Made by a program: the position numbers and the translations under genes
NCBI GenBank assembly: GCA_002224055.1
Contig: AZLU01000034.1
Location: 227,136-266,277, forward strand
DNA: 39,142 nucleotides
Reading direction: 5' to 3'
Source of the DNA: Pezizomycotina sp. ARF18
Taxonomy: Eukaryota; Ascomycota
Shown here: piece by piece, positions 11,170-19,087 of the stretch
Layout of the letters: each line of letters opens with the position of its first letter
How positions within the stretch are numbered: position 1 is the stretch's first letter
The notes under the pieces: model-generated
What the model was told of the DNA's origin: nothing
The model's input: the letters and a program-made list of their open reading frames with translations, nothing else
The model's database searches: none

Positions 11170-11187
11170 AAAAAAAAAAAAAAAAAA
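11170..11187 (-). terminator. Pol III terminator of tRNA-Trp
   Basis: On the minus strand a run of 18 T starts six bases after the tRNA discriminator base. No run of four or more T occurs inside the 174-base gene, so this is the first Pol III stop signal. Confidence 0.85.
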
Positions 11188-11214
11188 CCATTGTGAGGAG
11201 TATGTGATTTGAAC

Positions 11215-11286
11215 CTGTAAAGTCATTATTAGTCTCTCTGTCGTGATAGTACTCGCTTATTGGACGGACGTTGTCTTTGAACTTAC
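11215..11286 (-). other. 72-nt spliceosomal-type insertion in the tRNA T stem
   Basis: Minus strand. It begins GTAAGT, has ACTAAT (fits RCTRAY) 16 bases before the last AG, and ends TTTACAG. Length 72 nt is typical for introns of filamentous fungi. Excision from 11286 to 11215 restores the T stem exactly. The ends can also pair with each other (TGTAAG with CTTTACA). A GTTCAAA copy sits near the start of the insertion and again just after it. What removes it, if anything, cannot be decided from the sequence. Confidence 0.75.
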
Positions 11287-11301
11287 ACATAGCCTTTCGA
11301 T

Positions 11302-11331
11302 GAAACACCATTTCCACTTTTGCAGCAGAAT
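11302..11331 (-). other. Canonical tRNA anticodon-loop intron, 30 nt
   Basis: Lies between positions 37 and 38, the standard site for the eukaryotic tRNA splicing endonuclease. It contains TGG twice, which can pair with the CCA anticodon, as expected for the precursor fold. Confidence 0.85.
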
Positions 11332-11670
11332 CTGGAGTCGAACGCGCTACCGTTGCGCCAACCCCCATTGCTTATGTGAGATTCCCAAGTTAAATTTCTT
11401 GATCATTAAGTGCACCGGCTTTGGACGCCTGCAACGAACCTTGGAAGTTTAAAAAGACCGGTCGTGCAGTTGATGATTCGTTTGTTTTGCTCACCTTCCA
11501 ACTTTGACACATCGTGAGCTTGTGAAAATGGTACGTATTCCATAGTGCTCTTGCTTCTAACTGTGATATATTTTCTTTTTGACCTGATTTGCATTTCACA
11601 AAGACGTTTCGTATACTTCCCCCCCCCCCCCCCCTAATGCCTGTTTTGAATGTGATTTTTTGATTAACCC

Positions 11671-17471: not shown

Positions 17472-19087
17472 ATGTGGTCCCTCGTCCAGTACCGACGAAT
17501 CGGTCGAGAAGTACAGTCCCGCGTGGAACGTGAACGTGCAGATGGCGGAAATATTGAGGACTGTTACCCCGTATCTCACGAGGGAGACTCCGAAAAAGAC
17601 GTCAAGGGTAGCCGTTTGTTCGTGCAGTCGGCGGGAGACGACGAACCCCTCGATCCGAAGAACTGGCCGTTGCTCTCCAGATGCAAGAACATCGCCATAT
17701 TATCCTCCTAATATTCGTTCAAGGGTGGGCAGGCGCGGCAGAGTCTATGGCGAACTCGAAAGCGAGCGAAGAGTTTCACGTTAGCAAAGTAGCCGAAAGC
17801 CTATCAACTGCGATGTACCTTTTCGGCATCGGCTCGGGTTCGTTCTTCGCGGCCCTTTATCCGAATCGCTTGGTCGGAATCCCGTTTATCTCGGCGCAAC
17901 GTTTTTGTACCTCTTCTTCGTGCTTGGCTCCGCGATGACACCTACTTTCGGGGGCAGGTTGTTTGCCGGTACTTTACCGGCGTATTCTCCAGCGCCACGT
18001 TAAGCATCAACGGCTCCAGCGTTCGAGACCAGTTCCGTCCCGTAAAGCGAGCATTCGTATTTCCAGTATCGCGTGGGCAAACGTTGCATCCCGGTTATCG
18101 CTCCAATAGCGGGTGTTGGATCGTCTCAAACACGAATTGGGCTGGCGATGGACAGAATGGGTAACCCTAATCATTTCCGGCTTCGCCTTCATCGTTGCAT
18201 TGCTCTTCCTACCAGAAACCTATCTCCCGGTCCTGCTCGACTGGCGTGCCGCTCACCTGCGCCGTGTTACCGGCGATAAACGCTTCGTATCCTCTCATTC
18301 AGAAGAGTCCTCCTTCATGGGACGAATCAAACGTGCTTTACCTCTCCCCGCCAAATTTTTCTTGAAAGAACTGTTATCACAGTATTGGGTAGTTACCTCA
18401 TCCTTCTTTACGTCCTTCTCTTCTCCTTCCTCTCAGGCTTTGATTACATCTTCAAAGAAACGTACAAGCTTCCGGTAAATCTTGTTGGCTCTTGCTTCGG
18501 CGCTATAGCCGCTGGAGCAACGGCATTCGCATTACTAGCGCCGGGCTTCTACAGCTGGGCGCGTCACCGCACCGAACACGTCCGCGGAGCCCGCGTCGAA
18601 CCTGAATTCCGCTTATGGCCCGGCATCGTCGCAGGCCCGCTTTTACCAGTAGCGTTGTTTTGGCTCGGGTGGACGGACTATCCTTCCGTCTCGAAATGGT
18701 CACCCTGGGCGCTTGCTTCCTTTTCGGAATCGTGTTGATTGCGATGTACATATCGAGCTATGAGTACATCATAGATAGCTATGGTGATCATGCGGGTAAG
18801 TCCTACCAACCTACGTCTGTTTCGTTACATCGGTGCGTGGGCGCTAGCTGACTTTTCTCAATAGCTATGGGTTTAACCAGTATAACCATCCTCCGGTACC
18901 TCGTGGCGGCGGCATGGTCATGGGAGCGCGTCCGATGTATTCGGATATCGGCGTGCACTGGACGATGACGCTGTTGGGATGTCTGGCGGTCATCCTCTCA
19001 CCAGCGCCCTTTATTTTCTGGTACTTTGGCCATAAACTGAGAAGAAAGAGTCAATATGCGAAGAATCCAGGAGAGAAGGAGTATTGA
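17472..19087 (+). CDS. MFS transporter, DHA1-like drug/polyamine family
   Basis: About 510 residues with the layout of fungal 12-TM DHA1 antiporters. The N-terminal cytosolic segment carries the typical pre-TM1 motif EPLDPKNWPLLSRCKN. Transmembrane segments follow: NIAILSSLIFVQGWAGAAES, SLSTAMYLFGIGSGSFFAAL, VYLGATFLYLFFVLGSAMTP (after the family's G-R-R/P-V-Y position), FTGVFSSATLSINGSSVRD, VTLIISGFAFIVALLFLPE followed by TYLPVLLDWRA, LILLYVLLFSFLSGFDYIF, CFGAIAAGATAFALLAPGF, and a final MTLLGCLAVILSPAPFIFW. An intron at 18796-18864 (GTAAGT donor, CTGAC branch, AATAG acceptor) precedes the last two segments, and the stop is at 19087. At least six indels interrupt the frame (for example near 17885, 17975, 18060, 18370, 18690 and 18910), but all membrane segments survive. 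The substrate cannot be inferred. The exact N terminus is uncertain: two frames are open between 17323 and 17470. Confidence 0.85.
18796..18864 (+). other. Spliceosomal intron in the MFS gene
   Basis: 69 nt, GTAAGT donor, GCTGAC branch about 13 bases before the AATAG acceptor. It splits the C-terminal membrane domain. Confidence 0.8.

Follow-up and report, generated by a model that had tools for sequence, protein, structure and literature searches.

This locus raises the question of whether a nuclear tRNA gene can be interrupted by an intron of the kind that the spliceosome removes. The window, by which we mean the whole stretch of DNA analysed (39,142 nucleotides, C34:227136-266277 within the 46.36-Mb, 408-contig assembly of Pezizomycotina sp. 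ARF18), holds on its minus strand a tRNA-Trp gene that a preliminary description had read as doubly interrupted, by a 30-nt intron after position 37 and by 72 nt in the T stem bearing GTAAGT, ACTAAT and TTTACAG. Both interruptions and all three motifs were found as placed (Table 1), as were the A box, B box and Pol III terminator that it had put in the flanks. It had also noted the absence of an internal TTTT, and we found none in the gene, the longest T run within the 72-nt insert being 3. After removal of both introns the gene has a cloverleaf with six of seven acceptor pairs, a CCA anticodon, A and B boxes and a terminator; no TATA-like motif was found upstream. Neither ARAGORN nor Rfam at gathering scores calls a tRNA in the unspliced window, because the T arm is interrupted, and Rfam gave no match to a group I core in the window at the gathering score, the insert being 72 nt long.

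Table 1. Coordinates of the tRNA-Trp gene and of other features. Plain numbers are window positions; C denotes a contig and L a locus.
Feature	Location	Strand	Basis
tRNA-Trp exon 1, positions 1-37, anticodon CCA at 11335-11333	11332..11367	-	sequence; strict cloverleaf
Ordinary 30-nt tRNA intron at 37/38, no GT-AG, no YTAAY	11302..11331	-	ARAGORN i(37,30) on excised form; ordinary-intron control
tRNA-Trp exon 2, positions 38-52: A38, anticodon 3' stem, variable loop, T-stem ATGT	11287..11301	-	sequence; paralogue comparison
72-nt GT-AG intron at T-stem positions 52/53 (tRNA-Trp, C34)	11215..11286	-	signal-free excision scan; absent from C177 paralogue
5' splice site GTAAGT	11281..11286	-	sequence
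Branch-site-like ACTAAT, presumed branch A 11229, 14 nt before intron end	11228..11233	-	
3' splice site TTTACAG	11215..11221	-	sequence
tRNA-Trp exon 3, positions 53-73: G53, TTCAAAT loop, CACAT, acceptor ACTCCTC, A73	11194..11214	-	sequence; strict cloverleaf
A box TGGCGCAACGG, uninterrupted	11350..11360	-	sequence; motif from general knowledge
B box GGTTCAAATC, first G is the last base of the 72-nt intron	11206..11215	-	sequence; motif from general knowledge
18-T run, Pol III terminator-like	11170..11187	-	sequence
Insert at 52/53, 66 nt, tRNA-Arg(ACG)	C2		
Insert at 52/53, 66 nt, tRNA-Arg(ACG), L043	C266:35604-35669		
Inserts at 31/32, 68 nt, and 52/53, 73 nt, tRNA-Pro(AGG), L079	C8:209600-210000		
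Insert at 31/32, 67 nt, tRNA-His(GTG)	C64		
Insert at 31/32, 60 nt, tRNA-Glu(CTC), L098	C2:196264-196560		
Insert at 15/16, 71 nt, tRNA-Leu(AAG)	C5		
Inserts at 7/8, 69 nt, and 15/16, 64 nt, tRNA-Leu(AAG), L104	C87:135770-136070		
Inserts at 9/10, 62 nt, and 18/19, 58 nt, tRNA-Leu(CAA), L105	C29:243410-243705		
Insert at 17/18, 59 nt, tRNA-Glu(TTC)	C72		
Insert-free tRNA genes (24)	Trp C177; Gly L005, L023, L102; Ser L008, L009, L033, L035; Thr L010; Asn L016, L018; Gln L017, L038, L130; Arg L034, L110; Glu L036, L099, L124; Lys L040; Ala L041, L118; His L083; Leu L113		
tRNA-like 3' arms	L106 (C34:170618-170920); L107-L109 (C39:53-61 kb)		
SSU rRNA gene, L139/L138	C189:16400-19600		Rfam
MFS transporter gene	18134..19081	+	
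mRNA intron of the MFS transporter gene, 69 nt	18796..18864	+	homologue-guided

The insert was delimited without splice signals, by deleting in turn each possible stretch of 40-120 nt within the 270 nt that precede the B box and passing each product through a strict cloverleaf test. The test asks for all five pairs in the T stem and in the anticodon stem, six or more in the acceptor and three or more in the D stem, with G-T allowed, together with T8, A14, G18G19, A21, Y32, T33, R37 and the T-loop consensus. Exactly one product passes, that from which the 72 nt were removed; it has all five T pairs, as expected from the claim that excision rebuilds the T arm, and it can be reached by two registers, one of which is GT...AG (GTAAGT...CTAAT...TTTACAG). 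ARAGORN names the excised gene tRNA-Trp(CCA), i(37,30), with a score of 106.0. The cloverleaf had been called complete, and this needs a qualification: the strict test is passed, but the acceptor stem has six of its seven pairs, with T1 not pairing C72. Since the acceptor of the intact second tRNA-Trp gene likewise has six of seven (A1, C72), the missing pair is no sign of decay.

That second gene was found with a 30-mer from the 5' half of the window gene, which at up to three mismatches occurs in two places in the genome, the window gene itself and C177:20736-20765. At C177 the tRNA-Trp gene has a continuous T arm and an ordinary intron of 27 nt (ARAGORN score 107.3), and it is without exactly the 72-nt stretch. 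The exons of the two genes are identical at 69 of 72 positions (bases 11352 and 11292 are both C in the window gene and T in the C177 gene), compared with 70% identity between the ordinary introns (shuffled 47%) and 56% between the 60-nt 5' flanks (shuffled 50%), and are thus better kept than the rest. A limited first-look search of the genomic DNA with the insert and short flanks matched only the insert itself, so no introner or donor gene was found.

Beyond the window, we listed sites matching B-box plus T-run patterns, fetched part of them and examined the sequence preceding those that looked more like tRNA genes. The patterns gave 141 matches (many of them repeats of one site; about 100 among the matches listed), 77 matches (reversed control 43) and 67 matches (control 50). 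The resulting census, incomplete and leaning toward genes with an intact B box, comprises 34 classified nuclear tRNA genes, of which 24 have no ectopic insert and 10 carry 13 inserts, one or two each, at positions 7/8, 9/10, 15/16, 17/18, 18/19, 31/32 and 52/53 (Table 1). Two tRNA-Arg(ACG) genes, found by Rfam, bear their inserts at 52/53, the same site as in tRNA-Trp. In L079, L104 and L105 two GT-AG introns accompany the ordinary 37/38 intron, making three introns per tRNA gene. ARAGORN, allowed introns of 0-90 nt, named none of the 10 interrupted genes correctly (six missed, four given a wrong identity); tRNA gene finders that allow only anticodon-loop introns miss such genes. Neither of two further searches widened the set: the pattern GTAAN{40,70}AGGTTCRANYC gave 37 matches, not exceeding the 40 of its reversed control, and added no tRNA gene to the set, and the known tRNAs concatenated as a DNA query returned one locus only.

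The identities of six insert-free genes (L010, L016, L023, L040, L041 and L110) were read by eye; ARAGORN names these otherwise or not at all. L102 was for a time taken as a tRNA-Asp gene with a 31/32 insert lacking GT-AG, a reading we rejected, as it is a tRNA-Gly(TCC) gene with an ordinary 46-nt intron. Eight tRNA-like loci (L101, L106-L109, L111, L112 and L115) were left out of the 34. ARAGORN gives tRNAs with 48- and 52-nt introns for L111 and L112. L106-L109 are four tRNA-like 3' arms that resemble one another in their acceptor and T arms, and three of them have a matching 5' half some 100-200 nt upstream. Removal of as many as three GT-AG stretches containing a branch site recovered no tRNA from the four; they may be tRNA genes whose introns are longer or of another kind, or members of a tRNA-derived family.

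One way to read the interrupted genes is as decaying pseudogenes, or as dead tRNA genes overlapped by Pol II transcripts to which the inserts belong, with no tRNA made. The intact tRNA-Trp gene on C177 is compatible with such a reading. The preliminary description had said that several intact tRNA-Trp genes beside a silent one here would speak against its own interpretation; half of that case is present, since there is one intact gene and not several, and with that copy at hand the gene in the window might in principle be silent or not needed. Two imperfect loci point the same way. At Arg(ACG) C266 there is no clean GT-AG solution: the T stem is restored in 66-nt registers with ends AG-GA, GT-AA or TA-AG, each one base off GT-AG, or in less ordinary products, and the 67-nt GT-AG form is accepted by ARAGORN (112.0) and fails the strict test. 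Glu(CTC) C2 has lost one T-stem base by deletion, scoring 100.1 in ARAGORN after GT-AG removal and failing the strict test. Comparison with Arg(ACG) C2 and Glu(CTC) C147 suggests that one base has dropped out of a short run at each of the two loci, whether by decay or by an error of assembly.

We nevertheless consider loss of function quite unlikely, as it does not explain why exons are kept while introns and flanks drift. The two tRNA-Leu(AAG) genes, on C5 and C87, are identical at 81 of 81 exon positions and both have an insert at 15/16; the two insert bodies show 52% identity (47% after shuffling, s.d. 3), yet GT, CTAAC and CAG are kept in each. The Arg(ACG) genes on C2 and C266 agree at 72 of 72 exon positions, with introns 58% identical (shuffled 50%). 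Over the Leu(AAG), Arg(ACG) and Trp pairs, the 60-nt 5' flanks are 48-57% identical, against 49-52% after shuffling. Three pairs of paralogues differ by the presence of an insert, namely Trp C34/C177, Glu(CTC) C2/C147 and, for the 7/8 insert, Leu(AAG) C87/C5. Removal of the GT-AG introns also yields a strict cloverleaf in eight of the 10 interrupted genes. Finally, no uninterrupted tRNA-Leu(AAG) gene was found with a 21-mer of its exon at up to three mismatches, a search that would miss copies with an intron inside the 21-mer or more diverged copies; only two genes in the genome match. Because both are interrupted, splicing at tRNA-Leu(AAG) looks obligatory from the sequence, if the assembly is complete there.

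As for promoters, the A box is split in genes whose introns lie in the D arm. TATA-like motifs lie 37-59 nt upstream of three of the 10 interrupted genes versus 12 of 20 other genes examined, and being rarer there they do not explain the transcription of interrupted genes. An intron at 52/53 leaves the B box intact, because GGTTC takes its first G from the AG of the 3' splice site. Preservation of the B box may be the reason why four of the 13 inserts sit at 52/53, a share that the search patterns favour.

The 13 inserts are 58-73 nt long, and 12 of them, including that of the window gene, have GT-AG ends. A YTAAY motif is present in all 13 (CTAAC in ten), with its A 10-18 nt from the intron end, compared with 7.3% for each shuffled intron. 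The 5' splice sites are GTAAGT in the window and GTAAGT, GTAATT, GTAAAT, GTATGT, GTTAGT, GTACGG, GTAGCT and GTAAGC elsewhere, close enough to GTAAGT that we take them to be able to pair with U1. No T run exceeds 4, a length reached in one intron, the others having at most 3. Pairwise local scores among the introns are low (maximum 16), with two pairs about 5 s.d. above shuffles. In length and geometry the inserts resemble an mRNA intron of the same genome, the one compared, which lies in the window, is 69 nt long and has GTAAGT and CTGAC with the A 13 nt from its end. It belongs to an MFS transporter gene whose frame is broken by one base close to a T5 run, at about 18355.

How far structure alone fixes the boundaries varies among the genes. 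Single excision gave one passing strict product for Trp, six for His (one with anticodon GTG) and nine for Arg C2. When the partner GT-AG intron was removed before the signal-free scan, one product passed for each of Pro 52/53 and Leu(CAA) 9/10, and three for each of Pro 31/32 and Leu(AAG) 7/8, every set including GT-AG. For the D-loop inserts (L103, 38 passing products; L042, 29; L104 15/16, 21; L105 18/19, 37), structure does not fix the register, and the GT-AG register was chosen.

A decoy test asked the same of all 256 boundary dinucleotide pairs at 75 loci, 18 of which are natively strict. When YTAAY is demanded and as many as two excisions are allowed, GT-AG rescues eight loci, against four for the next pair, TA-GG, and a mean of 0.36 (s.d. 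0.76); three of the four TA-GG rescues are GT-AG junctions shifted by one base. When one excision was allowed and the branch site was dropped as a requirement, GT-AG again came first with five, followed by TA-GG with four (mean 0.72). When ARAGORN, which is too permissive as a judge, took the place of the strict test, GT-AG rescued eight loci, compared with a mean of 6.0 over the 256 pairs and a best of 10.

These signals also bear on whether the inserts could instead be ectopic tRNA introns cut by the tRNA splicing endonuclease through a bulge-helix-bulge (BHB), as occurs in Cyanidioschyzon and in some archaea, with GT-AG and branch motifs arising by coincidence. Multiple ectopic tRNA introns are known from the red alga Cyanidioschyzon merolae and from the Guillardia nucleomorph, where many are without a defined BHB, according to PMC3978253. 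At Arg(ACG) C266, the registers in which the T stem is kept do not give GT-AG ends, and the Glu(TTC) C72 junction has four central BHB pairs, a number that three further inserts reach within two bases. Even so, the full 4/3/3 pairing is found at none of the 13 junctions, the best exact-junction value being 4/1/0, at one of them. At the window junction, which lies at 52/53 instead of 37/38, the value is 3/1/1, also the best within two bases. Coincidence would leave unexplained both the GT-AG ends of 12 inserts and the well-placed YTAAY of all 13, and neither GT-AG nor YTAAY occurs in any of seven ordinary 37/38 introns (from genes of the set and two paralogues). We therefore regard endonuclease-type cleavage of the inserts as very unlikely. 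To an assembly artefact, with the inserts absent from the organism, we give almost no weight: one-base indels are possible, as in the frame break of the otherwise conserved transporter gene, but indel noise does not yield 13 inserts, each 58-73 nt long and bearing splice signals, at structured positions, nor insert positions shared within the Leu(AAG) pair and within the Arg(ACG) pair while the bodies have diverged.

The reading that we prefer is that U2-type spliceosomal introns very probably interrupt Pol III tRNA genes of this fungus. The preliminary description had proposed a spliceosomal-type intron in a nuclear tRNA gene, and the sequence evidence supports it through the signal-free scan, the C177 paralogue, the absence of a complete BHB and, most strongly, a further eleven GT-AG introns in eight other genes, seven of which give a strict cloverleaf. 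More broadly, it is likely that spliceosomal introns have become dispersed among the nuclear tRNA genes, with as many as two in a gene that also has an endonuclease-type intron, that some isoacceptors, at least tRNA-Leu(AAG), are without an uninterrupted gene, and that decoding of some codons would depend on the spliceosome acting on Pol III transcripts.

As regards the host genome, its SSU, 5.8S and LSU rRNA match eukaryotic Rfam models. The rRNA looks like that of Pezizomycotina, and among 30 proteins matching a transporter fragment the single one labelled with an organism name is from Monosporascus sp. mg162. The SSU rRNA gene in Table 1 contains, close to its 3' end, a group I intron matched by Rfam, and after the conserved GGGCACCACCAGGAGT stretch another insert that looks group I-like by eye; no spliceosomal intron was seen in the stretch of SSU read by eye. 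The same contig, C189, has four copies of the SSU 3' end, spaced about 10.87 kb where adjacent. Of 54 Rfam tRNA matches, 33 fall on C50 (231 kb), all of ordinary length, and this contig is probably a very large mitochondrial genome. C257 has two Rfam tRNA matches with the same sequence.

Under our proposal, the nuclear tRNA-Trp(CCA) gene of the window combines two kinds of intron, an endonuclease-type intron at 37/38 and the 72-nt U2-type intron in the T stem. The gene, with A and B boxes intact, would most likely be transcribed in full by Pol III as far as the T run, and the major spliceosome would then recognise GUAAGU, the CUAAU branch site and CAG and excise the 72 nt in the nucleus, rebuilding the T arm, after which the precursor could fold, be trimmed and lose the 37/38 intron to the tRNA splicing endonuclease. 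The endonuclease measures the folded tRNA body, and the spliceosomal step is for this reason expected to precede the endonuclease step. A plausible origin for the introns is that excised introns were reverse-spliced into tRNA, followed by reverse transcription and recombination. If this scheme is true, the action of the spliceosome on short Pol III precursors becomes testable, with both intron kinds in one tRNA gene, as do the order of the two splicing systems and reverse splicing into structured RNA as a live route of intron gain.

The preliminary description knew of no spliceosomal intron in a nuclear tRNA gene, and we found no precedent either among the matches listed for open-access PMC titles and abstract openings. 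The nearest precedents are introns in rRNA and U6. According to PMC8527467 and PMC6652019, which cite Bhattacharya 2000, nuclear rRNA genes of ascomycetes, lichen-forming species included, hold spliceosomal introns; the former describes them from lichen rDNA, including one that is spliced out of rRNA in yeast, as well as many group I introns in the rDNA of lichen fungi. The term tRNA does not occur in PMC8527467 and appears once in PMC6652019, in a table of organelle genomes. Like our inserts, the rRNA introns are mRNA-type (57 bp in Cladonia grayi against 58-73 nt here) and lie in genes for non-coding housekeeping RNA that Pol II does not transcribe, in rDNA that, like the rDNA here with at least one, also has group I introns. 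The rRNA genes, however, are Pol I genes, whereas the genes described here are small, tightly folded tRNA genes in which the inserts stand beside endonuclease-type introns.

The U6 precedent raised in the preliminary description is borne out by PMC10484740, which cites Tani and Ohshima 1989 and 1991 for an mRNA-type intron in fission-yeast U6, a Pol III product. U6 thus shares with the tRNA genes a spliceosomal intron in a Pol III transcript, and reverse splicing has been invoked for it. It differs in sitting inside the spliceosome, a location that has been used to explain its exposure to reverse splicing, while tRNA does not sit there. The nuclear tRNA genes of C. merolae, with ectopic multiple introns (Soma 2013, cited in PMC3978253), are alike in having several introns per gene outside 37/38; those introns are described as BHB-mediated, whereas here there is no complete BHB and the U2-type signals are full. 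The ordinary 37/38 introns of eukaryotic tRNA genes co-occur with the inserts in the same genes, that of the window included, and differ from them in position, in length and in having neither GT-AG ends nor a branch site.
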